From Apostichopus japonicus (lineage: Eukaryota; Echinodermata; Holothuroidea; Aspidochirotida; Stichopodidae), in contig NC_092562.1 in NCBI RefSeq assembly GCF_037975245.1, forward strand, positions 29,525,554-29,589,553: DNA of 64,000 nucleotides, written 5' to 3'. Position 1 is the first letter of the stretch; every line of letters begins with the position of its first letter. Under the pieces are notes generated by a model. That model did no database searches and was not told where the DNA came from. It worked only from the letters and a program-made list of their open reading frames with translations. The position numbers and the translations under genes were made by a program. Of the stretch, positions 25,257 to 53,400 are shown in pieces.

Positions 25257-28200
25257 ATGAGTGTGGGACCTCTAGTGGTAGAGATACTCTGTATCTTTGC
25301 CCTCTCAGCTTATCTGCTTCACAAGTATGGAGACTGGAGGAAACAGCATCCCTTAGTGACAATTATAGTCTTCATCTCGTGGTATTTCTCCTTCATCATC
25401 ATCTTTGTTCTTCCACTCGATGTCACCACAGTAAGTATGAAGTATTAAGTGGTACTTCTGTTAGTTTAAGTAGAGATGTATGGCTGATTGAATGTCACCA
25501 CAGTAAGTATGTCTGAAGGAGTATTCCACACTGTTAGTTTAACTAGAGATGACTGAGTGAATGTCACCACAGTAAGTATGCCTGAAGTGGTACTCCACAC
25601 TGTTAGTTTAACTAGAGATTGAATGTCACCACAGTAACATGCCTGAAGGAGTATTCCACACTGTGAGCTGAAAGCCCATGATCTTGTCCCTAACTAGTGA
25701 TGTATGACTGAATGATTATCACACAGTAAGTATGCCTGAAGGAGTGTTCCACACAGTTAGCTAAAAGCACAGTATCTTGTCCCTAACTAGTGATGTATGG
25801 CTGAGTGAATATTCACCTAGTTTAACTGGTTAAACCATCCATTACTCTAAGAAATGGATCACAGTAGGTGGTCTGTGATGTCATCAGAGAAGATGTTCTT
25901 CAAAAGCTTGGAAGTTCTTTTTATAATCTTCTTAAGTTCATGTGTTCTTGAAATGTGATACATTTGGACTGTTTATGTGAATCTGTCAAATGTTCTCTGC
26001 ATATAGAATTTCATCAAAATGCAACTTTTTTTTATAGAAATATTTGTATTTTCCTCCTTGGATATATGATTTAAATAATCTCAAGAAAAACATACAGTAC
26101 ATTTTCAGCTCTATTGCCATGATGTAATCATTCACCATGCTCAATGCCAGATGCATTCACAAAATATTACCAAATTTGAAAATTCATATCTTTGCCATGA
26201 AAAATTATGCGAGTTTGCAGAAAATTTCCGACACTATCGTTATTAGTTCAGTCAATGGCAGCCACAGGACCACCCCTTTACGAGCTCTGAAAAGCCCAGC
26301 CGATAAATTGAGAGCACAACCCAGCAACCCCCTCCATACCCCCCTCCCTCTCTCTCTCACTTAAATTATGACCTCTGATATGCATTGACAATGTCATGGA
26401 GACTGCTAAGCTTCCTTACTCACCAACCTCTAAGAGGTTGTAGTTTTTCCCAATCACTTATTAAAGTAGACCTGTAAGATGGCATTATGGGATGTCAAGA
26501 ACCCTTTGGAATCATCTTACTTGATGAATAACTTTACCAAATCAAAGGAACTGTACTAGTTACACTTATTTACTATGTTTGAGAACATTTTGTTAAAAAT
26601 ACAACTTGTTCCCCAGTTTATCCTAAAATCAGTGCAAAACCAGCAGTTTAAATAAAACATTGATCTGCCAATTGTTAGGCCTTTAGAACTTGTCATATTG
26701 CGAATCTAAAGTGTTTGCTTTGAACATAGCATGAGCACATGATTTTAATGTTGGGACATTGTACATTGAATTGTAATGTACAGTCCATAAACATATCAAT
26801 GTCACTGTTCACAAGTACAGTACCTATATCTCGGTCCCTATCAGTAATGTATATATTTCATTATTCCTCTTTTTGTTTTGTCACATTAAATCCTGTCATG
26901 CTTTAATTTATATCATAAATGTAATTTATGTATCAGAATCTCTGTTCTTAATTTATCCCCACATCGACTGTTTTTTTCACAATTTCTCCCAATTTGATTG
27001 CTTTTAGACATTTTACAAGCAGTGTGTGCATGATTCTGTGAAGCCAAGTACAGCGGCCCCTTCTAAATTAAACGAAATAGATACCACCCTTTGGGTTGAT
27101 CCCAAAGTAATAACAACAGAAGACGTCGTAGACTCAAATCGGATCCGAAGGGAATCCCCTCCGGTCAACGAATGTCATGAACCCTGGAGTTACGTACCTG
27201 AAAATATTCTACCTATCATCTGGTCCATAGTGTACTGGACATCTTATCTACTCACATGGTAAGCACTATCACATGATATGATCAAAACTAAGATTATAGT
27301 GTACTGGACATCTTATCTACTCACATGGTAAGCAGTATCACATGATATGATCTAAACTTAGATTTAGTGTACTGGACATCTTATCTACAAGCACTATCAC
27401 ATGATATGATCAAAATTAAGATTATAGTGTACTGGACATCTTATCTACTCACATACAAGCACTATCACATGATATGATCAAAACTAAGATTATAGTGTAC
27501 TGGATTATAGAGTAGATTATAGAGTGGATTATAGAGTACTGGAGTATAGTGTACTAAGATTATAGTGTACTATCTACAAGCACTATCACATCATATGATC
27601 AAAACTAAAATAATAGTGTACTGGACATATAATCTACTCACATGCTAAGCACTATCACATGATATGATCAAAACAGACTATAGTGTACTGGACATCTTAT
27701 CTACTCACATACAAGCACTATCACATGATATGATCAAAACTAAGATTATAGTGTACTGGACATCTTATCTACTCACATGGTAAGCACTATCACATGATAT
27801 GATCAAAACTAAGATTATAGTGTACTGGACATCTTATCTACTCACATGGTAAGCACTATCACATGATATGATCAAAACTAAGATTATAGTGTACTGGACA
27901 TCTTATCTACTCACATGGTAAGCACTATCACATGATATGATCAAAACTAAGATTATAGTGTACTGGACATCTTATCTACTCACATGGTAAGCACTATCAC
28001 ATGATATGATCAAAACTAAGATTATAGTGTACTGGACATCTTATCTACTCACATGGTAAGCACTATCACATGATATGATCAAAACTAAGATTATAGTGTA
28101 CTGGACATCTTATCTACTCACATGGTAAGCACCATCACATGATATGATCAAAACTAAGATTATAGTGTACTGGACATCTTATCTACTCACATGGTAAGCA

Positions 28201-29377
28201 CTATCACATGATATGATCAAAACTAAGATTATAGTGTACTGGACATCTTATCTACTCACATGGTAAGCACTATCACATGATATGATCAAAACTAAGATTA
28301 TAGTGTACTGGACATCTTATCTACTCACATGGTAAGCACTATCACATGATATGATCAAAACTAAGATTATAGTGTACTGGACATCTTATCTACTCACATG
28401 GTAAGCACTATCACATGATATGATCAAAACTAAGATTATAGTGTACTGGACATCTTATCTACTCACATACAAGCACTATCACATGATATGATCAAAACTA
28501 AGATTATAGTGTACTGGAAATCTTATCTACTCACATGGTAAGCAGTAACACATGATATGATCAAAACTAAGATTATGGATGGAAACCCTGGAATAAAAGG
28601 TTTCTGTTGACTTTGCAATCTGTAGCAAGTTTGACAGCTTTGAGATAAATTGATATGTTAAATCACCGGGTTGTGTTGGTCACTTCACCAAGCCTACTGA
28701 GTTTTACGGAAAATAAGTTTGCAATCAGTCTGACTGTGACACCATAATTTATTTTCACCCAATGAATCTAATATTTAGTTAATAACAGAACACTGACTGG
28801 GAAATTGATTTTCTCCTCTCTTATCTGTCTCCAAACATCATCTGTACTTTCCCATCTACCTAAACTACATGACCAGAAATCTTTCAGCACTGCGCCCTCT
28901 ATTTCTACTTCTGGGCACCGCCAACTTTTCTCCTCCTTTCCAAGCTACCAATCAGAAGTGTAAGCTACGTGACTTGCGGGATTTTCATACAAGAGCAAAG
29001 CAAGCAAAAAGGAAGAGAAAAGAAATTTGTTGGTCTTTCTAAATTACCAAGTTTAATTAGCGCTTAATTAACGACTCCAATATTTTTCCAAGTAAGGCTT
29101 TGTCCAGACAATCTTATAATACAAATATTTTCACAGTACTATGCAAGACAAGAAACAGACCTGAACAAAAGAAACTTTTGTGAAAGTCTTGAAGGAAAAT
29201 GAAACTGGAAAAAATGTATTCATCAGATACACTGAAATAAGGAAATATTTGTGGTGATGACAATATAGACATAGGTGTACGAGGTGGGGGGGCAGGGGGG
29301 GCAGACTGCCCCCCAAATTTCCAGAGGACAAGAAATTCGGGCAAAAGTCCTGAAAAATTCGGGCAGCCTAAGAGGGA

Positions 29378-29417
<40 letters not shown>

Positions 29418-32400
29418 TGCAGTAGCTTGCCCGAATCTTTTTCAAATTTTTGCCCGACAATTCTGTGGAGAGCGTTTTATGTTATTTGTTTTGTGACATT
29501 AATATTAATATAGGCCTAATGACTTTCTTTATTTAGCATCATGTTGCCAGAATATATCCGTGTAACACCACCGTAAGCGCAGCTCATCTGGGCTACCACT
29601 TTTTAACTAGTCAACTGTATACCTGGACATCCCCGACATGAGTGTATATAAGAAACGTTTTCTTGTTCATGGATGGTGGGGGGGGGGAGTGCCTACAAGC
29701 CTAGAAGTACAGGTTTATCATATTCTTTGTTATTTTTTATACTTTTTTTGTGAGCCAAATCTCACCCGACACAGCCACATTATCCCGCCTACGTGTCGTT
29801 GAACAACGTATGTTTTTCTGGAGGTAGCTGAGTACTGTGTTAAAATAATAAATACGGTACCGGTAACTAAATAGGAGCTTAAAAAATATACTGTCCTATT
29901 TTTCCCCTTCAAAGTGATGTTACCATTTTTTCTTCTTCTAATTTACCAAATTTTTGGGGAAGTGTAAATTTCTAAAACGTGAGATTATAAAAAAAAGAAT
30001 GTTTAGATGCAACTTGCAAGGCCTCAGAAGTGCCATTTCCGGCAGTCTGAGAGTCATTTTTTGCCAAAAAATTTCTTGTACGCTACGCGCCAACCGATGG
30101 TGGCGCTCCGCTTAGATAGTGTCACGGGAACTTTCGGGCACAAAAGTTTCTGCCCCCCCAAACTGAAATGATCCCGTACGCCTATGAATATAGATACCTG
30201 TACTAGAAGTATCTATAATGTTAGCATGTCACCACTAGTCATGAAAAATTAAAGGATTGCAGGGCAGGTTAATCCAAGCTTCAGTCATTCAAAGATCATG
30301 TATCATTTAATAGCTTGGTAGATGAAATATAAATACAAAATATTAAGATATTTCAAAATTCAATAGCACACAGCTGACGGCTACAAGAAATATTTTATAT
30401 TACAGTTTTTCATTTATTTGACTTTTCTACATTTCTAAATACAATAAAGATTCATATTGTAAGTGTCAAGTAGGCCCACAAATTGTTGTGAAAGGAGATA
30501 TTTTGAACTGTCCACAAGACATATAAACGCCATGAAAAATATAACACATTAATGCACTTTAAGCATGCAAAAATAAAGCACAATTACTAGCAATCTTGCT
30601 CCCCTGTCCAAATTATCAAAACATTCACCAGGGAATCTTCATTGCCCTGTTTATCTGAACCTTCACCAGTGCCATCTATCAGAATCATGGCCACCATTTT
30701 GAAAGTTGATATAAGATAATTAACGACCTTCCGAAATCTTTAAAATGTTGTATATTTCTCATAGGCAACTCACTTATGAGAGACTAGTTTTAAGTATTGT
30801 TCATTATCTGTGGCACTCATGTTGCAATTACATATATTTTGTTGTACATGCCAGTTGTCATAATATTAGCAACCCTCTTTAGCTATTAAACATCCAATGC
30901 ATACGAGTAATAATACACACCCAGTTGGGACATGTGTTCATATCCAATACCATGCTCTCAAAGCCATGGTATTGGCAGTACAAACAGTTCCAAACCTTGA
31001 TCGGATAGAAACATGATATTCATACTGCTGGTACTGACAATACGAGTGCTCTGAAGCGGGACACGACACTACAGTTTAGTAAAAAATTGTCCCAACTGGG
31101 TGAATAAATGTAAGGAACTTCATACTATCAGTATAAGTGCTTTGAAGCATTATATGAGAGTACAGTACTCAGAGATTTGTAATAGTATTAGAGAACTGTC
31201 CCCACTGGGCCGTACAAGTCCATAACATATTAATAATGTAGTCTTGATTATCGATTCGATCTGATTCTTGCTTTACAGGATTGTAATGCCAATGATGAAG
31301 TCTTATGTGTCTGCCGGTGCTTTCACCGTCAGAGGAAAATTGAAGGCCGCAGTGGTGGAGAATCTCATTTGGTATGGCAGTTATCTCCTAATATTTGGCG
31401 TATTCCTCATCTACGCGGCGGTCGACCCTAAGATTGAATTAGATATGTAAGTAGTACTGTACCGTTGGAATGTATTCGCTTATACTTTCAGCAATATCTC
31501 TCGATATTAAAAACATATAAAACAAGTGCAGTTTTGCTTGGTTCATGAAGCAATACTGTTACAAGTGTATGTGTGATCTTGAAGTGTTGTTGTTGTTGAG
31601 TGTGTTTCTTATGGGTGTTATTGTGTATTTTGGTATTGGAAAGTTGTTAAATATGTTCTTTTTTAAGGTGTTGTTTGATATTCCTGATTTAGAGGTTAGC
31701 CACATGTTCCTTTTGAAGATATCGATGGACAGAATTTGGGAACATGGTTCTGTAGAGGGTACCGTTAGGTCTATGGGATTTCTGGATTGAAGGTGTCCTT
31801 GGTTATGTACTGCAGTTTGATCCATTGGGAATGTTGCTATATTGTTATGTACGGTTATAAACTTTCAGCATGCAAGGATTTACTTCACTTTGATCACTTA
31901 CCTGTCTCCCCTCAACCTCAGCACTCTCTCTCTACCGTGTCTAGTGATCTGGTAACCTTTCAGCACCATTACCCTCTCTATGACCAGTTACTACCAATCA
32001 ATGACTCTCCTTCTCATTCTACCACCCTCCTTTTCTTTCCACCACCCAAAATGTCTGGAAATATGTCTTTCGTACAGGTGTCCAAAATCTTCAACTTCAG
32101 TGTGATTAACTTGTTTTTTTCCCCCTTTATCTGCAGACAAAACCTTCAGGTGATTGGGATCACTGCCAGTAACACATGGGGTCTGCTCCTGTTGGTATTA
32201 CTGCTGGGGTACGGCTTAGTGGAAGTACCCAGGAAGTACTGGTATCAGTCAAAGAAGGGATACCTCTTAAACTACATCTATTTTCAACTAGCTAAGTTGA
32301 GCACAGAGAAATCAGAGGCTGAGGAACATCTTGAGGATGTTCTGGAGGTAAAGCTCCCCCCCCCCCCCGAAACTCAGGATATGGTTACTTGAATGGAACT

Positions 32401-35400
32401 TAGTTTGGTTGGCTAAAACCCTTCAATTTTTCCCTGGAGTGGATCAAAGTGGTCTGTGAGATATCATGATGTCAAATGTTCTTCAAAAGCTTTATGTTCA
32501 TTTTAATAACTGGTCATCATTTTCAATGTTGCCTTAGCTGTCCATGTTCTCTGTAAATTCATCAAAATGCAACAACTTTGTAGAAATATAATTTTATTTC
32601 TGTGAATTATTCAAGTGAGTATTATCAAAATTAAAAATTATAAAAATTTCAGCTGAATTGCCGTAATGACATCAATCACTCTACTGTTGCCAGATGCCTT
32701 CACAATAATCAGTAGTTATTTTTTTTATTTTTTTTAATAATACAACCAAGTTTGAAAAAAACATGTGTTCTCCGTACAAAATGCTATGAGGATATGACTT
32801 TGAACAAGAGATGTAGAAAGTTTCCGAACACATTTGTAATTAGTAAATAAATATATATTTGTTTAATTTCAAAGTAGGATTTAAAAGATGTTGATAATTG
32901 ATTATCTTTATTTATATTCTTTATTTATTTGTTTGTTTTTTGTTTCCTATTGCAGGATGTCAGGAGGGTGTCAGATGTCATTAAATACAACCATGCCAGC
33001 AGAAAGAATGTTAATACCATCATCTCTAAATGTCCAGACACATTCCAAGATTCATTAGTTAAACACTTAGATGATTTTCAAGATTACGGCCAGAGGAAAG
33101 AACAGGTAGGAAGTATATTCTCAGAGCATTTTACGTTTGCTTTTTTATATCCAGTCATACCTCTCATGTTGTTACCTGCACCAAGGGAAAGCAGATTGAA
33201 AGCACAGAGGTTTCTTCCTAGAGAGGGACACCTCTGATATACAGGGAGATCCTTCTTGATAGTTACCGATAATTTAGTTTAGTTTTGTGACGTAAAGTGA
33301 TTGGTAGGTTCTCACTCTGGGAAAGGTTTTCAGTGCACTGCCAAAAGTAGAACAATGTCAATGGGTTTGAATATTTCTCGTTAAATGATGAGTTTAGACA
33401 GAAATTTATTGCTGATAATATCAAGTCAAATTGATAGTTGTATGTAACACAAAATATCGAGTGCAGGCCATGTTTCTAATTAAGTTTTCAATAGATTCAC
33501 CTCTATTACATCTTGAATCCCCCCTCTCCCCATCACCCTTTAGGAAAAACTTTATGATGACATCATCACCTCAACCCATGAGTAATTGTTAATGTTAATC
33601 TATGCCTTTATTCCATATTGTCAGTGGTGGTATTCTGGTATGAAATCCAACATGATTTGTCCTTGAGGACCTTGTTAATGACTTCTGTCTATTCAAGACT
33701 TCTACAAAATATGGAGCTGTTCCATGTAAATTTGAGTGTTGCTTCTATGACTGATAATCAAAGATGTAACCTAGCCAGTTTGATTGATGAGTCTGATGTT
33801 AACATAACGACTGACTTCTCAGATATGAGAATATTGGTATTAAGTTCTATCCTGCACTGCTAACATATTTTTCAATATCCTGTACCTTTGCAAAGAATTC
33901 TTTGATTTTGTCTAATGTTTTCATGAAAAACTGTCTCAAAAAGTGAGGCATCATAAGTAAAAGGCTGTGTGCATTGGTATTGTTGAAGCCTTACAAACAA
34001 ACAATACCCCATCCGCCTGTTTTGTAGTAACACTACCTCTTGCATCCACATTGGCAAAAAAAGATAATAATAAAGTCTTCCCTTTCATATTTCTAACAAC
34101 ATTTTGCACTTTGTCTAAACAGCATTGAGATGCTCTGTGTTTACATTTAACGTGTTGTTTGTTTGTTGTTGTTGGGGTTGTTTTTTTTAAATGGGTGTGT
34201 TTGTTTTTAATTATGTTTCATATTCTTGAAGTATTTCCAAAACAAACTTTCTCTGGAAAAAACTTGTAACTTTCTACAAATTGAAATCATAGGTCAAACT
34301 TACTCAAATTTCTCAGACTCTCAATTGATTTAATGAATTTAAAGGTAAAAATTTTTGGGAAAAATAGTTTTAGTCATCAGAGAAAACCTTAATGAAAAGC
34401 ATTTTTCCCCTCCTTTTTTCTCGTAAAAGCTAATATTATCAACTATGTTATCAACCTCTGTCCCTTAGCAACAGCTCAATATCTAACTTAATTAAGCCTT
34501 CCAATATATTTGCCATCTCCCAGAAAGAAATTTGAGGCTTCTTAATGACTCTTAATAATGTTTCACTTTACTTGTACTCATTTGCTTTTCTTTATTAAAA
34601 GACTGAACCAGTTATGGTAAGTAGCAATTGAACGCAACCTAACATGCTTATTTTTTTTGCAACCCACAGTTTTGCTTTGTGTAGCTTATAGAAGCCATTA
34701 CCCCCCCCCCCCCTTCCTTTAATGGTGTAACCAGGAAATTGATGATGGGGCTCTTCATAATTAAATAAGGAAGTTTATCCCATCAGTGAAGACCATAACA
34801 TGAACCAACGGTTATATATTACTAACTAAAGAAATCAGTTTACCTCTCAGAGCTGAGTTTGCAGAGCTGGAAAATTTGTTGTCACCAACAACACTTTGCC
34901 TGTTTTGTTATGAAACAATTTGTTACATATTAAAAAACTGAAATACAATGAAACACCAATCTTGGGTATAGACATATTTTCTTTGCCAATTTTACAATTC
35001 TGCCATTTTGTGTACAGTTTGGGCACAAAGTTGAATTAAAATAGCCCCAGTTATCACCAACTGCAATAATTAGCTATTCAAAAGGGAGCTAAACATTATT
35101 ACCGGGCTGGGGGGGGGGGGGATGGGAAGGAAATGGGAGGCTGGCTGTCTTATTGGTTGTACAGGGTGCCTAACCTGGTGGTGTTTTTGTCTCTACACAG
35201 CAATGTCATTTGATGTTCTTGTTGCACCATTGGTTTTTTGTTTTATTATTTATTTATTTATTAACTTACTTATTTATCCTCCTCCCCTAATTTAGCTTTC
35301 ACCTTATAACTCGCACATAACCACAATAACTTTGGCAAAAATAACAAACTAATGAAATACTGCTTATTCAGTACATCTTTGTGTTGTTTCTATTTTAATG

Positions 35401-38400
35401 ACCATTCAGAGTACCACTCTGTGAAGCCTTGTAAAGAATCAAACTTTACAAGTCAAACTGAAAGTGTCCTTCTGAAAAATAGTGACATTAACTCCACCAT
35501 CTGCCCTGAATGTAGAGCCCTATCTAAAGAGAGAGGCAGTGATGTTTCACCGTTTAGTATCGTAGGCTAACTGTAATTGTACACATTGTGCTGTTTGTAT
35601 ATGAATACTGCAACTTGGGTTACTTACATTTGGCTACAACCTGTTGGTACAGTAGCATGTATACACAACTAGTTGAAGAAAAGGCCAGATATTTGCAAAT
35701 GTAGTTTCTACCTTACTTCAGTCCACCAAATTCATCCCAGGAATGAGGAAAATTTGATGTCATGCTTGCATATGAAATGATATCAATATAATAATTTGTC
35801 GGATGCAATTATTTTTCTGTATAATGAGTAAAAATGTTAATAACTCACTAAGTATGATCTCTCTCTTAGTAGGATTGAGAGGATATTATTAGTGTATATG
35901 ACATGGTTTGGTCAGAGGATCACAGAGATACAACCCAACGCATAATACAGCAAAGAAAACATGATTATTAGATGACAAGTTTCTCAGTATGTATTTCTGT
36001 CTCTAGTTATTCTTGTGCAAAAGGGTTTCCCGCTCTATATGCAAATATATGTTCAATGGGGATGAATATTTAACAGTCAATACTCCAGCGATTTCACTTT
36101 TCTCTGATCTACTCCTGGGCGGAGGGTTTCATGGCCTTTCCACTTGTATATGTGTTTTATTAGCTGAATATTTATTTTATCGTTACCCCGCTAATCCGCT
36201 ATGCTTTCTCGGTTTGTCAATCGTCTTTTTATCGTTCAAGTGTACTTTATTGTATGATTGATGTGACTTCACTTAACACAGTATTGTATTTGTTGTGGTC
36301 TTATGGTCCAAATAAGTTTTGTTGAGATAGGATGTTTTCACCATTCTGACGCTAAATGATACCACTATATAGCACAATTGTCGACCAAGCACTACATTGT
36401 ACACAGTGACTGGACTAACAATGAGGAAAGCATGAAGGGAATAAATTATCTGGTACCGCATCGCAAAATGCTATGCAAAGTGGTCAAATTGCTATACGAG
36501 TCCAAAGATGTATAGCAGTTTGTGTACATAGGAACCATTGTATTTTATAAGAGACAAAATTTCAGTACCTTCAAAACTGCGACACAGAGTTTGATTTCTA
36601 AACTGTTCCACAATGACATGTGTTGTGGAATGATTGGAACTTTTATACACAGGCTCTAAATGGAATGTTGGTTTCTGTTTAAAAGGGAACAAAACTCAAA
36701 GGTCAAGAGAGATAAATGAAAACCTTCCTCGTTTAAGGTAATATTGTCTTTAATATCAGTTACTGTGTTGACTTTTATCTGTAGTGGAATCTATTTATGC
36801 TTAGGTCCCACATGCTGACTGCGAATGACTTCCAGTGTGTACATGAATACAGTTTATAGGGGACAATATAATCTTAAGTCAGTTCTCTTATATTTGCTTC
36901 ATCGATGATTCTTCCGACTAACTCCATAAACTCTGAATATGTTACATTCACAAAGATTAATGCTCAGATGCTAACTGTTTGCTGCCTGTGCTAAAAATAT
37001 GAATCAAAATTTTTATTGAAGTATGCTTCTTTTTCACAATCTGTACCTTCTTATGTAGGAAATGTCAGTATGTATGGGGGAAAATAAAAATTAACATTTA
37101 ATTTTTGCTAGCAGCTTTGCAGATATTAATTTTCTTTGGCTTAAGCCCTAGCTGCACATTAACAGATAAATGTCTGCTTAACTAAAGAGGAAGTATGTTT
37201 ACTAACAGTAACAAAGTACATCACATGGATTCATTGTGTAGTCAAAGCTAACTTAAACAGTGACTGAATCTTTCAGCAGTACTAAGGAATGAAGCTAATT
37301 GACGTACATGTACAGTATATATACATTGAATGCATCAATGAAGAACATATGCTTTATTCCAATCAAAGAAATCTTACAACCATCAAATGAAATTTATGTA
37401 ATTTAAATTAAATTTATTTGAAATTTCTTATATTTACATGCACAGGGTTTTTGCAGTAGATAAGCACTTTTGTTTATTAACAATTTTTTCCTCCTTTTGA
37501 AGCAATTTAATTGGAGAGCTCTGAGGTTGCTAGCACTGCAAGACCAGAACATCACTACTAAGTTGAATAGTATTAAAAACACATCAAAGATTGAACACTG
37601 CATTTTTTTTCCTTTTTTCCTTTTTCTTATTTGTCCTTTTTTTTGTCTTTCTTTGCTGTGAAATTTAATTTCATATATATATTTTTGAATTTGAAGATTC
37701 AGCTTAATAGAGGAGAAGACCTCAGCAAAGACTCTAGATTTATCGGTGCCTTAATAACTGGCACCATCGCAACAAGTTGTAGAAGATTTGTTGCTTTCAG
37801 ACTATGCAACTATTTATGATGTCACATTTTAATATCTTACTGTTCATATTTACATTGATATTGATTCATCTTTAGACCTTCTCCTCCTCCCTTCAACATG
37901 ATCTTAATTGAGCATAGTTTTGACAGTACCCATGTCATCTTATCCTCTTTAAGTTCAAAAGTGAGAGGTAGTTAGTTTAAACCTTTGCTTCTTTTTTTAA
38001 GAGTTTCCACAATTTGGGTTTTGTAAATTTGCAATTCACATACAGTCAAAGATATGTGTCTTTTATTTCCTTTTCTTATCATGGAAGTTATTGATAAGAT
38101 TTCAACGTCTGTTTGACAAAGGAACACATTGGTGGCAAGAAAACAACTGTTTGAGTTTGGTTGGCAAGTTAGCCAAATCTATGAAGGATTTACTCAAAAT
38201 CAGATGGCAATTGCTCCACCTAATCCACCATAATGAAAGAGTAACAAGCATATTCAGGTCATAACATTATATCTCCCAGATTTCATAATACTGTTAGTAA
38301 TCTTGATTAAGCAGCATGTTCGAATTTTAAAAGAATATTCAATATTTGGTTCTGTCAATTGAAGTGAAATGTGATTAGTGAAGTAGTGAAGTTAATAATC

Positions 38401-41400
38401 TACATCGTTACTGAACTTCAGGATCAACTAACATCAAACAATCTATCAAAAAACAAGGGAGCAAGCTGCTCTAAACATATAAACCAATAGGAATCTTCCT
38501 TTCTCTGTTTGAAGTTAAAGGAACGGGCCAAAATGTAATTTAAGTTTTGACTGATGCAAAAACAGCATTCCAATCAAACTTGCTTTCGATTCTCATTTCT
38601 AATTCCTACCTGACCTTATCTAGATAATCCTGCTCATTTGTTGGTGTGGTGTAAACCTTACCCATCCACATAATTTACAAGTTAAAACAATGCCCAGTCC
38701 AAAGTTAGAAAGATGCACCTATGACATCACACTTGTTTGCTTCAAGCTCACTTCTAGTAATGAATGTGACAACTTAAACCATTGTTCAACATTTGAAAAA
38801 CTACAAAGTAGGTAACAATTCCAGATTTTGATTGCATACCTAAATTTTGTTCCATTTTATCTGTCCAGAAGCCTCATGCTGTTTTTTTTTTTTTAAGTAA
38901 ATAAAAAATCCAAAGGATAGATCGAGTTTGCTGGTTATTCGTTAAACCTTGCGAACAGATTTCCTCAATTACTGTAGGGTTTTCATTACTATGGATGTTA
39001 TCATACACTTTGGTTTCTTCTCCATGGGCACAGATTCCATCGGAAAAAGATTTGGTGAAGCTACACAGTAAGGTAATTTATGCCATGCAGTCGAGGAGAC
39101 GAACTTCCACCCAGTGGGACATTCTGGTTGAAAAGGCGTTTGAATTGGAGGATGTAAAGAGCAATGAATCCAACCATTCCAAGTAAGTAGAACCCTCTAT
39201 ACAGAAATATATATGTAGTTTGCAGTATTGTCTGAAATATGATCAGTTTTACCATTGAAAAAGAAGCTATAAAAGTTTCATTCACGGAGGTGTTTTCACG
39301 GAGGTGTTATTCATGGAAGTGTTTTTCTTTCGAAAGTCCCACAAATCCTTGTCAATCAACTGATGCAGTAGTTTAACAAATTACCTTTTTATCTTACGAT
39401 GAGCAAATTAGAACTGATTGCAATATTTTCGACGAATTAAAGAACAAAAGCTTCAAGACGATTGTTTTGTACCATGATAAATTGCAATGTAATTTCTCAG
39501 TTACTCTTTTGTTGTTGATTTATTTGATTTCTCATCTAGAGAAGAAATAGCTATGAAAGTGGAGCCTTTCTCTCACTTTTGGTCCTTCATGATTTTTTTC
39601 TCTTGCAGGAATTACCACCACACCTATGACCCGAACTATAACGGCTTGAAGAGTTACATCTGTACACCTAACGTGGAGTGGCACTGGAGGATTCTGCTGA
39701 TGCCGACCATTCTCAAGGTGGTGGCCGTGGTGTTAGTCATCGGTTCCGTTATGGTCATCTGGTGTGAGATGACTTTCTTCTGTCTCAGTCCAAACCTGTC
39801 TCTTTTCTCCATATTCGTGGATTCAGCCAATAGTAAAAATAATTATTTAGTGATAGAGGTAAGTTAAAACTAATTCATACATGATTTACTTAAATAGAAA
39901 AAAAAGTTTAACCTACAGAAAATTCTGTGTCCCACAAATATAATAGAAGGTATCATTGTGTTAATTAGCAACTTCTTTGAATCACTTGGGATATTACGGT
40001 GGATTTAAGGTAGGCTAAAGTAAGGGATTATATGTTAGGCACCCTGTCGTTTATCTCGAATGGTAAAATATGATGCCTGCAGATTTTATCAGATACAGTC
40101 CAATCATGTTTACTTTAATTTACATGTTGACGTCTAGAGGGGAATTTCTTTTAGATTATTACCATCTTGATTCCCAAATCTTTGGCAAGAAGGTGATCCA
40201 TGGTAAATACAGGGGAAATGAACTAGTTAATTTCATGAATATTCATAAAGTTAAATTTATGCTAATCTTCCTTTCTTTTATTTTGCAGATCATATGTATT
40301 GTTATCATGGCATTTCTCAGTGTGTGCTCCTACTACACCGTGTTTAAAATTAGAATATTTGATTTTTACCTTCTGGCTCCGCATCACCAAACAGACGAGA
40401 ATAGTTTACTCTTTTGTGGCATGTGAGTCATTTTTACAGATTTTTTATTCACAATATATTTTGCTTAGGCTTTCAGGTCACTTTGTTTGTTAAATTTTTC
40501 ATACAATTATGAGTGAGATTAATTCTTGCATTTGGCTATCTTACTTTATGATGTGATGCTCTTTGCTAATTTTCCAGACAAAATGCAGTGTTAATTTATA
40601 TAAATTGCAAAATGAGAGAAATCTGTCTTGTAGAAGTATTTGGCAAATGCACTCACTACACATTGCTGCCCAAAACATACAATATGTACCCCATGCATCA
40701 TTTTCTAAAAATGTACAAAAATATATTCTCCCCCCCCCTCCCCCCTAATTTTTACTGACATATCTTTTGCTCTAATAAAGGCAATTGAATCTTTTAGGAT
40801 GCAGGGGTATTAATAATGTATGTCACTGTTGAATTCTGTGATTTATGTATTTTTTAGCTAAACAATTTTTAGCAATTGTTATATTTATAGCAATACCAGG
40901 ATACCAGCAAACTGTAGCAAGCTACTGTACAGGGTATTGGTGTTGGTGTTATTAATGAGAAAACAACTCTATAGAACCAATTTGTTTCTTTCTTTATCTC
41001 TGTTTCTTTTGTTCCGCTTCTCCCATTCTTATTTTTATCTTTTCTGTGGCCAGTTTTATTAATGTAGTTTAAAGGTGAACTCTTTGATCCATCTCCCAAC
41101 TTCGAAACTTACTCTGCCACTTAAATATGAAATACTGATTTTTTTTAAAATTATTATTATTTTTTTTTTTTATAGTTTTGTTGAAAAGTAGTTGAAAAGA
41201 AATGGTGTGATCTGTGGTGTTGTTGTTTCAGACACAAGTAAAATCAACTTCCTTTTGCTCTTTCGAAAAACTGGACAATTTTGCACAATTAATCGTTTTT
41301 AGGCAAAGTCAGAATTTGTCAACTCCCAGTATCGGAAGACAACAGAAAAACAACACCAATCAACAGATTGATGTGTCAATGATTAACCATGTCAGGGGTC

Positions 41401-44400
41401 ATTTGAAAATGTCACTTCCTTATTAAGAAAAAGAGTTCCGAAAGTAATAAAATACTGGTCATAAGTAACAATGCCAAACCTACTAATGTTTCTCTTTTGT
41501 GTTTTACACACAGGATGCTCTGCCGTCTCACCCCACCTCTGTGTCTGAATTTTCTTAGTTTAATCCACTTGGACACCAGGACGGATGAGTTAGAGACAGC
41601 TTATACAGGGGTAAGTGGCACTCAGAGATGTGTGGGTGGAGGAAGTGGTCTTTAGGATCGGACTTGAAATGGTACTTAATTAAAATGGTACTTCAGTCAG
41701 AATAGGATGTGAGTGAAGAATATCTCAATTAATCAATTACTTGGGATGAGAACGGGCCGGTTTGCTGAGACTCTGGAAAAAGATCATTTTGTAAAGTGAA
41801 GTAGACTGCTGATTGGTTTAGCTTTTTTTCGACTAACTGCTGATTGGATTAGCTTTACAGAGACTTTCACATGACTTAATCATATTCAGACAACTAGCTT
41901 TAAAGCAGCATTTTGCGTCCTTTTCTATGATTTTTCTCAACCTCACTGACTTCACTATGCCATAACGACATACATAACTAGCTTATCTATTTATATTTTA
42001 CTTCAAATGGTGGCATAAAAGTCGAAAAAATTGCAACTTTGAACTTTGTTGTTCTCCAAGATATTTCCTCGCCCATAATATGAATATTTAAACACTACGA
42101 ACGTCATTGACAGATACGTAATATAACACCACGCTTGATTTGTGTAAAGTCTATATGGCAGTTGTACCAGAGAGTTGCATAACAACTCCCTGGTTGTACC
42201 AACGCAAAGTCTTGAATCTATTTTTAGCAACGGCTCATAACTAAACCTGCATCTCTGATTGGTTGAATTCAAACTAGTGGGTTTGGGAACTGAATGCGAT
42301 TAATTTTGTATGTGGAATACTCGCCAATTAACGTTTTTGGCAGGGAAAAACTTGGCTAATAACTTAATTTGCTGTTTTGTGATTTGATGTATGTAAAAAA
42401 CTCGATGGACATGTCAAAAAAGTAGAAAACGGCGACCAAACGCAAAATGCTCATGAATAAACATACTATTCACTGATTGGTGGAATTCAAACTAGTGGAT
42501 TTGGAGATATGAAAACTTTGTCGAGGACACTTTTACTCGTTATCGACATAAATCGTTAATTACTCGCTAATTAACGCTCTTGGCAGGGTGAAACTTGGAT
42601 GGTATCTCAGTTTGCTGTTTTATGATTGATACATCTAAAAAAATCGATGCACACGTTAAAAAGGTGGAAAAAAGCGACCCAACGCAAAATGCTGCTTTAA
42701 TTCAGTGTGAAAACTATGATTTTGTTTTTGTTGTATTTTTTATTCTGTCACTGTAGATTTATTCCTTGAAGTATACAATCCTATTATGGTTTCTTTCATT
42801 TTATGTCTGTATGTGAGAAAGTACCAATATTTAATATATTAATAGGGGAGCTCCACATTGCATTACACAGTAAACATCTCAGTTTTGTCCTACCTCCTGT
42901 TTTTGAAAGGCCACTAGTTGTGTGTGCTGTGTGGATGCTCACACAATTAAATATAAGTTTCACGTCACAACGGATATAAAGGCTCATGAAAAATTCCTGC
43001 CTTAACACTCGGTTTAAACCCACAACACTTCGTAGCAGATAGTACCTAAATAAGAGTCGTGGCTTAAGTTGCCATGGTTACAACTGGTCACATGCATGTG
43101 TGAGCATAAAGGTCATAGTGGTCATACATAGCCTTGCCATGATAACTACATGCATGTTGGAGAGGTTAAAGGTCATAGTGGTCGTACATAGCCTTGTCAT
43201 TGTAACAACATGCATGTTGAGATGAGAGGGTAAAGGTCATAGTGGTCATACATAGCCTAGCCATGATAACTACATGCATGTTAGAGATGAGAGGGTAAAG
43301 GTCATAGTGGTCATACATAGCCTAGCCATGATAACTACATGCATGTTAGAGATGAGAGGGTAAAGGTCATAGTGGTCATACATAGCCTAGCCATGATGAC
43401 TGGTGTGGAGAAGTGAGTGGAATTTTGATATGAAATACTTTCAGCTTACTTAAAAAATTTGAGCTAAATTTAGTAGAAACAACAGAACTGTAAGTTTAGG
43501 TTAGGAAAGCTGTTTTGCAAGGTAGTATCTTCCACCTTTTAACTTATAAAGCAATCATAAATATTACCTGTAAAGAACTGTGACAAAGTGACATTAAGAA
43601 CAAAGTTTCTAGGTGCCAGTGTGAAAACTTTGAGGAAGTTATCCTTCTTAGCTATCTTGAAGTGATGATCCCCTTGGATGGTTTCTCTTTGTCAGGTGAT
43701 GGGAAGACATCTCGACCTATTGCCCTTCATTCAGTCCGGTTTCAACGTCTATTATCCGATCATCGTAGCCGTCCTCTGCCTGGCCACTTACTTCCATCTA
43801 GGGAGTCGCTGCCTCTCCTGTCTCGGCTTCCAACAGTTTGTGGGAGACGACGATATGACAGAGGACATGATAGAAGAAGGTCACCAACTCATGAAAAGAG
43901 GTAATCCTCAAAATATGTGTGTCTGCTTGGAGGGACGAAACAAGGTGGTAAATAAATGTAGTTTGGTTTATGAATCAAGGTAATAACTGACATGGTAGAA
44001 GAAGGTCACCAACTCATGAAAAGAGGTAAACATCAAAATATGTGTGTCTTCTTGGAGGGAAGAAACAAGGGAGTAAATAAATGTAGTTTGGTTTATGAAT
44101 CAAGGTAATAAGTGACATGATAGAAGAAGGTCAACTCATGAAAAGAGGTAATCATCCAAATATGTGTGTCTGCTTGGAGGGAAGAAACAGGGTGGTAAAT
44201 AAATTTAGTTTGGTTTATGAATCAAGGTAATAAGTGACATGGTAGAAGAAGGTCACCAACTCATGAAAAGAGGTAATCATTAAAATATGTGTGTCTGCTT
44301 GGAGGGAAGAAACAAGGGAGTAAATAAATGTAGTTTGGTTTATGAATCAAAGTAATAACTGACATGGTAGAAGAAGGTCACCAACTCATGAAGAGAGGTA

Positions 44401-47400
44401 ATCCTCAAAATATGTGTGTCTGCTTGGAGGGAAGAAACAAGGGAGTAAATAAATGTAGTTTGGTTTATGAATCAAAGTAATAACTGACATGGTAGAAGAA
44501 GGTCACCAACTCATGAAGAGAGGTAATCCTCAAAATATGTGTGCCTGCTAGGAGGGAAGAAACAAGGGAGTAAATAAATGTAGTTTGGTTTATGAATCAA
44601 AGTAATTAGTGACATGGTAGAAGAAGGTCACCAACTCATGAAAAGAGGTAATCATTAAAATATGTGTGCCTGCTAGGAGGGAAGAAACAAGGGAGTAAAT
44701 AAATTTAGTTTGGTTTATGAATCAAGGTAATAAGTGACATGGTAGAAGAAGGTCACCAACTCATGAAAAGAGGTAATCCTCAAAATATGTGTGTCTGCTT
44801 GGAGGGAAGAAACAAGGGAGTAAGTAAATGTAGTTTGGTTTATGAATCAAAGTAATAACTGACATGGTAGAAGAAGGTCACCAACTCATGAAGAGAGGTA
44901 ATCCTCAAAATATGTGTGCCTGCTAGGAGGGAAGAAACAAGGGAGTAAATAAATGTAGTTTGGTTTATGAATCAAAGTAATTAGTGACATGGTAGAAGAA
45001 GGTCACCAACTCATGAAAAGAGGTAATCATTAAAATATGTGTGTCTGCCTGGAGGGAAGAAACAAGGTGGTAAATAAATGTAGTTTGGTTTATGAATCAA
45101 AGTAATTAGTGACATGATAGAAGAAGGTCACCAACTCATGAAAAGAGGTAATCATCAAAATATGTGTGCCTGCTAGGAGGGAAGAAACAAGGGAGTAAAT
45201 AAATGTAGTTTGGTTTATGAATCAAAGTAATAAGTGACATGGTAGAAGAAGGTCACCAACTCATGAAAAGAGGTAATCCTCAAAATATGTGTGCCTGCTA
45301 GGAGGGAAGAAACAAGGGAGTAAATAAATGTAGTTTGGTTTATGAATCAAGGTAATAAGTGACATGATAGAAGAAGGTCAACTCATGAAAAGAGGTAATC
45401 ATCCAAATATGTGTGTCTGCTTGGAGGGAAGAAACAGGGTGGTAAATAAATTTAGTTTGGTTTATGAATCAAGGTAATAAGTGACATGGTAGAAGAAGGT
45501 CACCAACTCATGAAAAGAGGTAATCCTCAAAATATGTGTGCCTGCTAGGAGAGAAGAAACAAGGGAGTAAATAAATGTAGTTTGGTTTATGAATCAAAGT
45601 AATAAGTGACATGGTAGAAGAAGGTCACCAACTCATGAAAAGAGGTAATCCTCAAAATATGTGTGCCTGCTAGGAGGGAAGAAACAAGGGAGTAAATAAA
45701 TGTAGTTTGGTTTATGAATCAAAGTAATAAGTGACATGGTAGAAGAAGGTCACCAACTCATGAAAAGAGGTAATCCTCAAAATATGTGTGCCTGCTAGGA
45801 GGGAAGAAACAAGGGAGTAAATAAATGTAGTTTGGTTTATGAATCAAGGTAATAAGTGACATGATAGAAGAAGGTCAACTCATGAAAAGAGGTAATCATC
45901 CAAATATGTGTGTCTGCTAGGAGGGAAGAAACAAGGGAGTAAATAAATGTAGTTTGGTTTATGAATCAAGGTAATAAGTGACATGGTAGAAGAAGGTCAC
46001 CAACTCATGAAAAGAGGTAATCCTCAAAATATGTGTGCCTGCTAGGAGGGAAGAAACAAGGGAGTAAATAAATGTAGTTTGGTTTATGAATCAAGGTAAT
46101 AAGTGACATGGTAGAAGAAGGTCACCAACTCATGAAAAGAGGTAATCCTCAAAATATGTGTGCCTGCTAGGAGGGAAGAAACAAGGGAGTAAATAAATGT
46201 AGTTTGGTTTATGAATCAAGGTAATAAGTGACATGATAGAAGAAGGTCAACTCATGAAAAGAGGTAATCATCCAAATATGTGTGTCTGCTTGGAGGGAAG
46301 AAACAGGGTGGTAAATAAATTTAGTTTGGTTTATGAATCAAGGTAATAAGTGACATGGTAGAAGAAGGTCACCAACTCATGAAAAGAGGTAATCATCAAA
46401 ATATGTGTGTCTGCTTGGAGGGAAGAAACAAGGGAGTAAATAAATGTAGTTTGGTTTATGAATCAAAGTTATAAGTTACAGGTATACCGAGAGCAGTAAA
46501 CACATGAATTGATGTAATCAGCTAAAGTATAAGACTTGAAATGAGAAACTATTTGTAGAAAGGAAACAGTAAAAGGCAAACACATAGGTCCAACTCCATC
46601 TGAATAGCTTGTTCCATTTGCTGTGGTTACAGAATTAATTCCTTTTATTTGGATGAATAAATTGCATGATAATCTGTGATATAATACATGGACTATACCC
46701 CCATACCCCCATAGACCATACCCCATACATACATGGACTATACCCCCAAACTGCTTGTGTGTTTCTTTAAAGTTGAAATGAAATGTTCACAACCTTTGAC
46801 AATAAGTCAACTTTTTTGTGACATCTGCAACGGTTTCTCCCCGACAGAAAAGAGAAAACGAGAAAGAGCCCTGAAAAGCGAAAGCAGGAAAAGGTACATT
46901 GAGAAAATAAAACCGAGAGAAAATGGTCAGAGGCTGGAGAATTTAAACTCCCATAGCGACAGAAGCTTTAACCGGGAAGCTGCATCAGGTGAGTAGTTTT
47001 GTCATAGGTATCAATGTCTAAATGGAGCACCAAATGCATGCCGTGTAGGTGGTTAAGCAATGTTTTGTGTTTGGTTACGACTAAGCAGCAATCTGTCCAA
47101 ATGGACAAAGAATCAAGCCACATTTTGACTGCAATCTATTAAAGCTTTGACACGTTCCTACCTCTGTTTCACACCCAAAAGTACAGATTATCAGCAATTA
47201 ACCAACAACTCTCTTTCCATATTTCAACATGTTTCATCAAGAATCTCTTGTTTCATTAAGTGTAGATTACACGAAAGTCTCTGAACACACTAATGTCGCA
47301 GACATGTGATATTTAGTCAATTTTCTTTATTAGTTTTAAATGAATATTGAAACTGGTTGAACTAAGAAAGTGCTTGTTTAATAGGATTACACCATGAACA

Positions 47401-50400
47401 AACATTCAACTGCTGCATTGAGGGTGTGCCGTTGTACAATAACAAGCTTCATCAACGCATCACTCAGTCTCCATATCACACATTATGTACTGCTTTAGTA
47501 AATGTCTGCTGCAAAATATTCAATTGTTTTCAAACTTTCGTGGAAGTTTTGTGCTTGGTGATAGCATTCATTCATCAACTTGTATTGTCAGTATATTATG
47601 TTGTTGTATCAACATTATAGCATGTTAGCATTACGGCAGCAGATGTGCTGAAAAAACCCACCAAAGTTTCTCTCCAACTACAACAGGAATATGATAAAAA
47701 CAAAACTGTGCTCAGACTTAGGAAACTTCAAGCTATTTACTTGGCTAAATGCCAGGGGATTATGTCACATGCCAGTGGAAATAAGTCTCTTGCATTTTGC
47801 TGCCGTTGCAAGAGTAATGTTGCTTTTGTATTGATCAAAAGAAAGTGAAAGTTGGAATTGATTCAAAGCAAATGAAAAGTGGGAATATTAAATTTAGTCA
47901 TTACCTGTTTTTGCTCTATCGGTTCATAGCAAAGGGCTAAAATTGTGAAGTTCTTCTAGGCCTGGTGCTTTTCCACGAAGTGTGGAGGGGTGAGCTAATG
48001 AGCTGCATTAACTTCCGTGCCAAAAATAATCCCAAAATGGCAGCAGCGACCTCTTGACATCCTTCTTTCCCTTTCATCAGTTGAAGTTGTCAAGATTAAG
48101 TTAGCTTCAGCCTGTTGCACACACTACCAATCAACATTCAACTCATAAGTTGTTACGTTAAAATTGTGGGTAGTCTTGCAGTGTGCATATAGATGCTGAA
48201 GATTAGGCCTGATTGAAATGTTGAACATCAGTTTTAAGGAACGTCAGCTTCAGTCGGGCACACTGAACGTGTAGAGGTGTCCGCAGTGTGAGGTGGTTCA
48301 CTACTAAATATGGTACAGATTGAACAAATGTAGGCAATCTTGGGTACTTAATTTACATGCGACCTAAACGAGCTACGGTTGTTAACAGTAAACGGCCATT
48401 GCGTTCGCTATTCAGTCATTCAGTGTGCGTCCGAGGGTCTTCACAACACTCGAAAACTAGGTCATAAGGGTCAAGTAAAGTCAGGTCATGATAAGTCGAT
48501 CAGTGTGCGGCTTGCTTTAAAGCAAGTGCATTATCGTTAGTGAGCAAGATATTTAGGTGAGAGTTTTGCGTTTGTTTACCACTGATATGCTTTCAGAGTA
48601 TAAGCTATCGTAGTTTGCGTAGCAATCACAAAAGTGTGTTTTATGAAACCTGCCAAACTTTCAAACTGCTGACATACTGCAGGCTTGAAACCAATAGGAT
48701 GAAGACTGGAGGTGACCAATTTATATACCCTACTCCTGCTAGTAGTATAGGTACATAGTAGAACAATATAGTTAAGTGGATATAATCTTAGACCCTCTTG
48801 ATGCATTAACATGTCATAGCTCATCATATGAGGAATGTAACTCACTGCTGTTTCACCTCCTATCTTTAAGGTGGTAGCCTCGTCCACCCAGCAGCTATTG
48901 GTTCCACCTATGGTTCTTAACATTTTGTTACCCTGACACTCTTCGCAGGAAAATCTGCCATTGTTATGGGATGTCAGTATATCAAGAATTCATTTATAAG
49001 CCCTAGTCTAAGCTAGGCATAATAACATATCACATGAGCCCACTACCATGCCATGACTGATGTGCCTAGCCCTAGTCTAAGCTAGGCATAATAACACATA
49101 ACACAGGCCACTACCCTGCCATGAATGATGTGCCCAACCCTAGTCTAAGCTAGGTATAATAACACATAACACGAGCCCACTACCCTGGCATAACTGATGT
49201 GCCCAACCCTAGTCTTAAGCTAGGCATAATAACACATAACACAAGCCCACCACCCTGCCATGACTGATGTGCCAAGCCCTAGTCTAAGCTAGGCATAATA
49301 ACATATCACATGAGCCCACTACCATGCCATGACTGATGTGCCTAGCCCTAGTCTAAGCTAGGCATAATAACACATAACACAGGCCACTACCCTGCCATGA
49401 ATGATGTGCCCAACCCTAGTCTAAGCTAGGTATAATAACACATAACACGAGCCCACTACCCTGGCATAACTGATGTGCCCAACCCTAGTCTTAAGCTAGG
49501 CATAATAACACATAACACAAGCCCACCACCCTGCCATGACTGATGTGCCAAGCCCTAGTCTAAGCTAGGCATAATAACATATCACATGAGCCCACTACCA
49601 TGCCATGACTGATGTGCCTAGCCCTAGTCTAAGCTAGGCATAATAACACATAACACAGGCCACTACCCTGCCATGACTGATGTGCCAAGCCCTAGTCTAA
49701 GCTAGGCATAATAACATATCACATGAGCCCACTACCATGCCATGACTGATGTGCCTAGCCCTAGTCTAAGCTAGGCATAATAACACATAACACAGGCCAC
49801 TACCCTGCCATGAATGATGTGCCCAACCCTAGTCTGAGCTAGGCATAATAACACATAACACAAGCCCACCACCCTGCCATGACTGATGTGCCAAGCCCTA
49901 GTCTAAGCTAGGCATAATAACATATCACATGAGCCCACTACCATGCCATGACTGATGTGCCTAGCCCTAGTCTAAGCTAGGCATAATAACACATAACACA
50001 GGCCACTACCCTGCCATGACTGATGTGCCAAGCCCTAGTCTAAGCTAGGCATAATAACATATCACATGAGCCCACTACCATGCCATGACTGATGTGCCTA
50101 GCCCTAGTCTAAGCTAGGCATAATAACACATAACACAGGCCACTACCCTGCCATGAATGATGTGCCCAACCCTAGTCTAAGCTAGGTATAATAACACATA
50201 ACACGAGCCCACTACCCTGGCATAACTGATGTGCCCAACCCTAGTCTTAAGCTAGGCATAATAACACATAACACAAGCCCACCACCCTGCCATGACTGAT
50301 GTGCCAAGCCCTAGTCTAAGCTAGGCATAATAACACATAACATGAGCCCACTACCCTGCCATGACTGATGTGCCTAGCCCTAGTATAACTTAGGCATAAT

Positions 50401-53400
50401 AACACATAGTACTAGCCCACTTCCCTACCATAGCTGATGTGCCCAACCCTAGTCTTAGCTGGGCATAATAACACATAACACAAGCCTGCTACCCTGTCAT
50501 GACTGATGTGCCTAGCCCTAGTTTAAGCCAGGCATAATAACACATAACACAAACCCCATAATTCTGCTAAGACTGATGTGCACTGGCCTAATTCAAGTTA
50601 AGGAAAATAAAACGCCTGGCCAGCTGTGAGTAAGCCATTCAAGGCAAGAACAGGCACTTTCTGGGTTGAATGGAATGTGTTTATTTAGTTAAAGACTTTC
50701 TGTAAATTGCTACCAGTCACTTAAGAATTTGACAATGGTTACAAGGCTTAGTTCCTGGTATGTCAATGCCAGTAAAGAAAAAAGGGGAATATCCTGCTAA
50801 GCAATAAGGAAGTCACTACAATGATTCAAAATATTTTAATTCGCAAGCTGTGAAATGAATTAGCAAAAAACTTTGCTTAGGAATTGGCAAGAATTATTTA
50901 CGTTTAGTTTCTACTTTCCGTGTGCTAGGTCTCTATCAGGTTTAGAGATATTTTCTTTCTTATAGAAAAGAAAATTAATCATATATTTAGATCTGCCATG
51001 TCACCCTATGTGCATGTATAGGTTGCTGTTATTCTACTTGTTAAATTGTTACTCTGATATATGTATTTAGGGAACAACATTTTTGAACTTGTAAAGAAAG
51101 AACAGTTTATTTCAGTTGTTAGCAATCGCATGGTAAATTAAGATGTTTTTTATTATCTCTACAACTCAAGTGTGAATCCTTAAGGATGAGGCCTTGTGGT
51201 AGTAGTAGCATACTACACCACTCAACTGTTTGTTAAGGAATCTTATAGGATAAACTTTGAGGAGTTTGCATGGGGTTTATTCCATGCTTTATATATGAAG
51301 CAGTAGTTACTGTGCAGGACTACAAGGTGAAACTATTGTTTAGAGGTAGCTGGTATGAACAACTCCCCTCCCCTCCCCCCAACCCACCCTCCACAGCACT
51401 GAGACACCAACTCTACCATCATCAATTGGTCTACTGTATGTAATATATAACTGTCAAGAACCCAACCCCCCCCCCCACCCACCCTCCACAGCACTGAGAC
51501 ACCAACTCTATCATCATCATTGGTTGTAGTCATAGTTCAGTATGATACAGTCATACAACCATTACTTACAGTATCGTGGTCATATTTCAGTATGAAATAG
51601 TCATACTACCATTACTTACATTGCAGTATTGTAGTCATAGTTCAGTATGAAACAGTCATACTACCATTGCTTTCATTACAGTATTGTAGTCATAGTTCAG
51701 TATGATACAGTCGTACTGCCATCACTTACATTGCAATATTGTAGTCATAGTTCAGTATCACTTACATTGCAGTATTGTAGTCATAGTTCAGTATGATACA
51801 GTCATACTACCATTGCTTACATTACTGTATTGTAGTCATAGTTCAGTATGATACAGTCGTACTGCCATCACTTACATTGCAATATTGTAGTCATAGTTCA
51901 GTATCACTTACATTGCAGTATTGTAGTCATAGTTCAGTATGAAACAGTCATACTACCATTGCTTACATTACAATATTGTAGTCATAGTTCAGTATGATAC
52001 AGTCGTACTGCCATCACTTGCATTGCAATATTGTAGTCATAGTTCAGTATCACTTACATTACAGTATTGTAGTCATAGTTCAGTATGAAATAGTCATACT
52101 ACCACTACTTATATTGCAGTATTAGTCATAGTTCAGTATGATACAGTCGTATTACCATTACTTACATTTCTGTATTGTTGTCATAGTTCAGTATGATACA
52201 GTCGTACTACCATCACTTACATTGCAGTATTGTAGTCATAGTTCAGTAGGATACAGTCATACAACCATTACTTACAGTATTGTGGTCATATTTCAGTATG
52301 AAATAGTCATACTACCATTACTTATATTGCAGTATTAGTCATAGTTCAGTACGGATACAGTCATACAACCATTACTTACAGTATTGTAGTCATAGTTCAG
52401 TATGATACAGTCGTACTGCCATCACTTACATTGCAATATTGTAGTCATAGTTCAGTATCACTTACATTGCAGTATTGTAGTCATAGTTCAGTATGAAACA
52501 GTCATACTACCATTGCTTACATTACAATATTGTAGTCATAGTTCAGTATGATACAGTCGTACTGCCATCACTTACAGTATTGTGGTCATAGTTCAGTATG
52601 AAACAGTCATACTGCTTACATTACAGTATTGTAGTCATAGTTCAGTATGAAACAGTCATACTACCATTACTTACAGTACTGTAGTCATAGTTGAGTATGA
52701 AACAGTCATACTACCATTACTTACATTACTGTATTGTAGTCATAGTTCAGTATGATACAGTCGTACTGCCATCACTTACATTGCAATATTGTAGTCATAG
52801 TTCAGTATACACTTACATTGCAGTATTGTAGTCATAGTTCAGTATGAAACAGTCATACTACCATTGCTTACATTACAGTATTGTAGTCATAGTTAAGTAT
52901 GAAATAGTCATACTACCACTACTTATATTGCAGTATTAGTCATAGTTCAGTATGATACAGTCATACTACCATCACTTACATTGCAATATTGAAGACAGTG
53001 TTCAATATGAAACAGTCATACTACCATCACTTACATTACTGTATTGTAGTCATAGTTCAGTATGAAACAGTCATACTACCATCACTTACATTACTGTATT
53101 GTAGTCATAGTTCAGTATGAATCAGTCATACTACCATTGCTCCAGTATATGAGTACCTGTTGGTTGAACAAGGTACCTAACATATCTTACCATTGTCGTT
53201 TCATTGCTGCTCTCTAAAACCATGCATCCTCATTCCTATTCTGTCAACACAACATGAAAGCAGACAGAAATACTGTATTAAGTTTAGAGGAGTACTACCA
53301 GTTTGAGCTTCATTATTCTGGAAAAAGGATTTTTCCTTTGGAAATTTAACACTTTGCAAACATATGTTTCAACCATTGTTAGATATCTATTCACTGAATA

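Follow-up and report, generated by a model that had tools for sequence, protein, structure and literature searches.

The window analyzed here is a 64,000-nucleotide stretch of the genome of the holothuroid echinoderm Apostichopus japonicus (G000:C2:29525554-29589553, in a searched genome of 671,581,487 bases and 35 contigs), which carries a multi-exon gene of the LMBR1 family, matched exon by exon by PF04791 in a profile search. We refer to this gene as LMBRD2, a name taken over from the initial annotation that presumably applies, since it fits the human protein. At the ends of exons 1, 2 and 10, all of which have an open reading frame in translation, the gene contains tandem arrays whose repeat units straddle the exon-intron boundary and include the 5′ splice site (Table 1).

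Table 1. Exons and tandem arrays of LMBRD2 (positions within the window)
Feature	Position	Strand	Evidence
Exon 1, 58 codons, ending in phase 0	25257..25430	+	PF04791 match, translation
Intron 1 array, unit with 11 exonic nt and donor	25420..25821	+	TRF, self-BLAST
Exon 2	27008..27258	+	Sequence, translation
Intron 2 array (unit 69 bp, 32 nt of it exonic)	27227..28576	+	TRF, self-BLAST
65-bp array in intron 9, comparison array	43107..43401	+	TRF; exon model by eye
Exon 10	43696..43900	+	PF04791 match, translation
Intron 10 array (unit 125 bp, 37 nt of it exonic)	43864..46484	+	TRF, self-BLAST
69-bp array in intron 11 as modelled, comparison array	48999..50550	+	TRF
Compound 55/91-bp array in intron 11 as modelled, comparison array	51524..53138	+	TRF
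64-bp array in intron 11 as modelled, comparison array	55250..55996	+	TRF

The three boundary-straddling arrays are confirmed as real features of this sequence: they were detected by Tandem Repeats Finder (TRF), and self-BLAST shows repeats crossing each exon end. Their units consist of the last 11, 32 and 37 exonic nucleotides, the GT donor and some intron, with donor junctions ACCACA/GTAAGT after position 25430, CACATG/GTAAGC after 27258 and AAAGAG/GTAATC after 43900. The arrangement described in the initial annotation, in which the exon end is itself the first monomer, is supported, and this copy has an open frame. Monomers recur every 69 bp in intron 2 and every 125 bp in intron 10, with some at 122; in intron 1 the spacing varies between 62 and 92 bp. 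Of the 2.9 kb of intron 10, which measures 489 bp without its amplified part, about 2.6 kb are array, as are 1.3 of the 4.0 kb of intron 2. Pairwise local scores among the three units are no better than those of shuffled sequences, which rules out kinship among them and upholds the proposal that the arrangement arose three times independently in one gene. Searched against the genome, the 125-bp unit gave 21 reported matches and the 69-bp unit 20, every one of them inside the unit's own array; no mobile or dispersed unit was seen genome-wide for introns 2 and 10 in a search that skips very common words. Each array lies within one intron and leaves the acceptor outside.

The intronic copies contain 36 decoy donors that retain GT, with four in intron 1 (last exon-like base at 25502, 25571, 25633 and 25725), 12 in intron 2 and 20 in intron 10. 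The numbers first proposed for introns 1 and 10 stand, but that of about 19 for intron 2 was too high because monomers rather than donors had been counted; GT is lost in five of its 17 complete intronic monomers, and all 20 decoys of intron 10 keep it. Scored with a rough donor matrix, the authentic donors of introns 1, 2 and 10 reach 7.3, 8.9 and 6.6, and 35 of the 36 decoys equal the authentic donor to one decimal, the exception (1.7) lying in intron 1. The reading of the intronic copies as carriers of decoy donors is supported, these donors being intact. Translation meets a stop codon on reading through to every one of the 36.

Four further arrays in introns 9 and 11 were included for comparison in a chance test of LMBRD2, which covered the seven arrays with a period of at least 55 bp in 11 modelled introns and omitted TRF rows of shorter period. 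The exon list and the seven arrays were entered by eye, with some edges one base off, which is harmless, and the model of intron 11 may have missed exons within it. Apart from these arrays, a 42-bp tandem duplication of about 2.1 copies occupies positions 59872-59960, apparently in the last coding exon of LMBRD2; it is in frame, repeats VDFSD..SHLGD and thus forms a coding minisatellite in a minisatellite-rich gene.

The sample of other genes from the same genome consists of 55 stretches, each taken around exons for dynein AAA_6, kinesin or the myosin head, with 247,407 bases and 210 exon matches in all (81 of 81 for dynein, 24 of 70 for myosin and 105 of 126 for kinesin). Loci with closely spaced exons were chosen, and one kinesin row with nine stops inside a fetched stretch was excluded. 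Exon edges were derived from hidden Markov model matches and a rough splice-site matrix, which gave splice models for 140 of 155 exon pairs; the other 15 stand outside the random-placement test. The 140 modelled introns contained 47 tandem duplications or arrays, of which nine straddle a donor, seven straddle an acceptor and 31 were counted as internal, the automatic cut being eight exonic nucleotides at donors and seven at acceptors (the chance model used one value for both). Alignments and translations, judged by eye and unblinded, were clean for six of the nine donors and six of the seven acceptors, and two further cases of each type were found outside the modelled introns (the L005 donor and acceptor, the L049 acceptor and the second L050 donor). 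The clean cases comprise eight donors (L005, L007, L012 with two, L013, L032 and L050 with two) and eight acceptors (L003, L004, L005, L011, L013, L027, L040 and L049) in 12 of the 55 loci; the L011, L035, L036 and L030 donors and the L022 acceptor were kept off this list as weak or unclear. For either type the straddling rate is eight per 210 exon edges, or 3.8% (95% interval 1.7 to 7.4%). Both boundary types are affected in the sample, whereas in LMBRD2 itself only donors are. The suggestion that introns lengthen at their 5′ ends is true of the three LMBRD2 introns, but the sample shows arrays at 3′ ends and in intron interiors too.

Individual loci illustrate the range of these duplications. 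The exon end ...CTGACACAG/GTAAGA of L013 is repeated in a 47-bp unit, of which 67 monomers were counted, and at the opposite boundary an 82-bp unit in L004 repeats the acceptor TTTCAG/GT together with 38 exonic bases. In L049 (2930-3361), three near-identical 124-bp copies include 69 exonic bases and keep the frame open in the intronic copies as well, and this duplication is apparently young. Tandem arrays account for 16.1% of the bases in the 140 modelled introns, and minisatellites may therefore contribute much of the length of introns in this genome. Fewer boundaries lie inside an array (11 of 140 donors and seven of 140 acceptors), as expected if growth into exons is barred.

The L013 array (658-3783, sense strand) extends over 3.1 kb directly after a dynein exon and holds about 66 CACAG/GTAAGA-like decoys, the longest string of decoy donors met in this analysis. 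L005 and L013 carry the corresponding exon of two dynein paralogues, with GRLVITPLTDR near its end, and each has a donor-straddling duplication, with units of 110 and 47 bp, respectively.

These counts were compared with a model in which a random unit of length u straddles a given boundary countably with a chance of approximately (u − 14) divided by all allowed positions, intron lengths having first been reduced by the amplified part. The main count of nine donors and seven acceptors (140 introns, 47 arrays) compares with 6.3 to 7.0 expected for each, and the total of 16 straddling arrays with 12.6 to 14.1 (P 0.16 to 0.30). When four weak rows are dropped, six donors and six acceptors stand against 5.6 to 6.4 expected for each. 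The initial annotation conceived such a comparison for all introns of the genome; the present one covers a sample of 55 loci, in which the rate is near that of random placement.

Several results weigh against purely random placement. Among the 34 arrays with E < 1e-10, 12 straddle a boundary versus 8.3 to 10.3 expected (P 0.10 to 0.30). In L014 and L016, arrays begin seven and five nucleotides inside the exon at the donor, below the eight-nucleotide cut and hence counted as internal, and no acceptor shows the like. In the loosest count, where these two are added and the weak rows kept, donors come to 11 against an expectation of 6.4 to 7.1 (P 0.04 to 0.08), acceptors to seven against the same expectation (P 0.47 to 0.59) and boundaries in total to 18 against 12.8 to 14.3 (P 0.06 to 0.12). 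Two clean cases occur together in four of the 55 loci versus 1.9 expected (P 0.13), and the proportion of exonic bases in the unit leans to low values relative to a uniform distribution (P 0.02) in 17 hand-entered cases, a set that omits the L005 donor (51 nt) and the first L050 donor (13 to 24 nt) and in which the second L050 donor was entered as 92 instead of the correct 89. The sample, moreover, is weighted towards three gene families and, within them, towards exons lying close together. Taken alone, LMBRD2 has an improbable set, with three of its seven arrays at donors, where 0.18 to 0.29 would be expected (P 0.0006 to 0.0008), and none at an acceptor (either-edge P 0.004 to 0.006); the random model accounts for this triple only through ascertainment, the gene having been chosen after the pattern was seen. 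Boundaries thus show at most a modest excess of arrays, and a donor lean, perhaps real if modest, appears in the loosest count only.

Taken together, we assign a probability of roughly 0.74 to the explanation that the arrays are ordinary minisatellites, born by chance across an exon-intron boundary as so-called "mirages" and filtered by selection on the exon copy. Its basis is the anatomy of the arrays, units private to their loci in the two cases searched, like frequencies at donors and acceptors, a rate close to random placement and the persistence of the decoys, while the route of duplication and the selection on the exon copy are presumed. A short stretch would be duplicated in tandem at a roughly random position in a gene; if a splice site lay within that stretch, the copy still attached to the body of the exon would stay the functional edge and the extra copies would fall in the intron. 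Unequal exchange or slippage may then lengthen the array into the intron only, because growth into the exon would alter the protein. The decoys, most of them intact, would have no visible effect; presumably they are passed over in favour of the authentic donor, which comes first and adjoins the exon and is probably the site that is spliced. Most probably, the LMBRD2 triple is an extreme, singled out by selection of the case, of a widespread process acting on donors and acceptors in much the same way. A broader proposition, which we put forward only tentatively and judge unlikely in its full extent, is that in this lineage boundary-crossing duplication is common (about 4% of sampled edges), well tolerated and productive of dozens of intact decoys, that the exon-joined site is chosen among equals, and that a modest real boundary excess, perhaps leaning to donors, lies behind the three arrays of LMBRD2.

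The original paper on the amphioxus Adh mirage reportedly appeared in Nucleic Acids Res in 2002. According to later reports, mirages in amphioxus (Branchiostoma) are known in Adh3, the globins BflGb6 and BflGb9, PGBD5 and troponin C (PMC3087553; PMC3902484), and the PGBD5 report, which cites Adh and troponin C, gives cases of 60 and 108 bp (PMC3902484). As described there, amphioxus mirages share with the present arrays minisatellite-like repeats across the exon-intron boundary at both 5′ and 3′ ends (the latter here in the sample) and AG/GT signals kept in many copies. Unit sizes are also comparable, at about 10 to 160 bp in amphioxus as reported there and mostly 39 to 165 bp here, with one of 475 bp. 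The present case differs in coming from an echinoderm, in the approximately 66 decoy donors of a single array (L013), in the addition of a sampled rate and a random-placement test, and in being known from the sequence of one assembly. Among the papers listed by literature searches there was no published echinoderm case, which is weak evidence of absence since most subscription papers were outside their reach. The sampled loci suggest that mirages also occur outside amphioxus. Human segmentally duplicated genes also show minisatellite variation at exon-intron boundaries, which in recent paralogues can yield novel introns and alternative splicing (PMC2812944); here, by contrast, it is the intron that lengthens, with no change to the exon. 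The available part of a report on intronic minisatellites and splicing in Caenorhabditis elegans (PMC4039745) has no bearing on boundary arrays.

Of the alternatives to chance-born mirages, the arrays might represent a step in intron gain or growth, as in the tandem-duplication model of Rogers or the mirage-to-intron model of amphioxus globins. The straddling units do contain splice signals, and the arrays take up the shares of introns 10 and 2 given above. The potato RdRp case of intron gain likewise involves tandem duplication of a stretch with a splice signal (PMC4974935), but no new intron was seen here. Since every LMBRD2 array is confined to one intron with its acceptor outside, and no new intron lies between duplicated splice signals in this gene, the observations run against intron gain by tandem duplication here, and we regard the explanation as a whole as improbable.

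The initial annotation had instead raised the idea that duplication is targeted to donors, with R-loops, U1-bound nascent RNA or break repair near AGGT seeding arrays at 5′ splice sites. Three of the seven LMBRD2 arrays begin at donors, and the loosest sample count, with 11 donors versus seven acceptors, leans the same way. The clean cases are evenly divided, however, and no clear excess beyond random placement was found. Units take in anything from 11 to 89 exonic nt at donors and from 11 to 69 nt at acceptors, and thus have no fixed register of the kind that a U1 footprint or the edge of an R-loop might give. Genome-wide, a pattern of three AGGTAAGT copies spaced 40 to 70 apart is not commoner than the same pattern read backwards, with 350 matches (297 forward and 53 reverse) versus 457 (309 and 148); overlapping matches in long arrays inflate these counts, so that the test is weak and is read only as no excess. 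A process strongly favouring donor regions is not borne out by these results, and donor targeting appears quite improbable as the source of the arrays.

It has also to be considered whether the decoys are functional, with repeated 5′ splice sites or U1 sites regulating splicing, premature termination or transcript decay. The near-uniform scores of the LMBRD2 decoys would fit such a role, and the stop codon before each of them makes an output via transcript decay conceivable. GT is kept in 104 of 109 intronic donor monomers over four arrays (19 of 19, 12 of 17, 66 of 66 and seven of seven), and AG in 26 of 26 acceptor monomers over six arrays. The exon-derived parts of the intronic copies are not clearly better conserved than the rest, being less diverse in six of ten arrays (P 0.75; combined P 0.52). 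Selection preserving these parts, suggested when four of four arrays leaned that way (one with P 0.017), was rejected when the lean vanished with ten arrays and a shift test. The units, furthermore, differ among the three introns. Decoys that are harmful if used should decay and useful ones should be retained preferentially; neither decay nor better keeping is clear, and a functional role seems very unlikely.

That the arrays are an assembly artefact is scarcely credible: long arrays are hard to assemble and these were read from the assembly alone, but that assembly was built from HiFi long reads according to its description (PMC10344927), the monomers bear individual variants, and 12 other loci have clean cases of a similar kind, 16 in all.

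The sample also shows how a striking pattern confined to the donors of a single gene loses most of its force when acceptors and random placement enter the count. What the arrays offer are natural tests of 5′ splice site choice, above all LMBRD2 intron 10, with its authentic and 20 equal-scoring donors, and L013, with its approximately 66 decoys, which probe donor choice where sequence cannot decide. How the spliceosome settles on the site attached to the exon, when the decoys are its equals, merits further attention.

Elsewhere in the window, at 12681-14344 on the minus strand, a neighbouring gene with an RNase_T exonuclease domain (PF00929) is transcribed away from LMBRD2. This gene is probably the oligoribonuclease REXO2.

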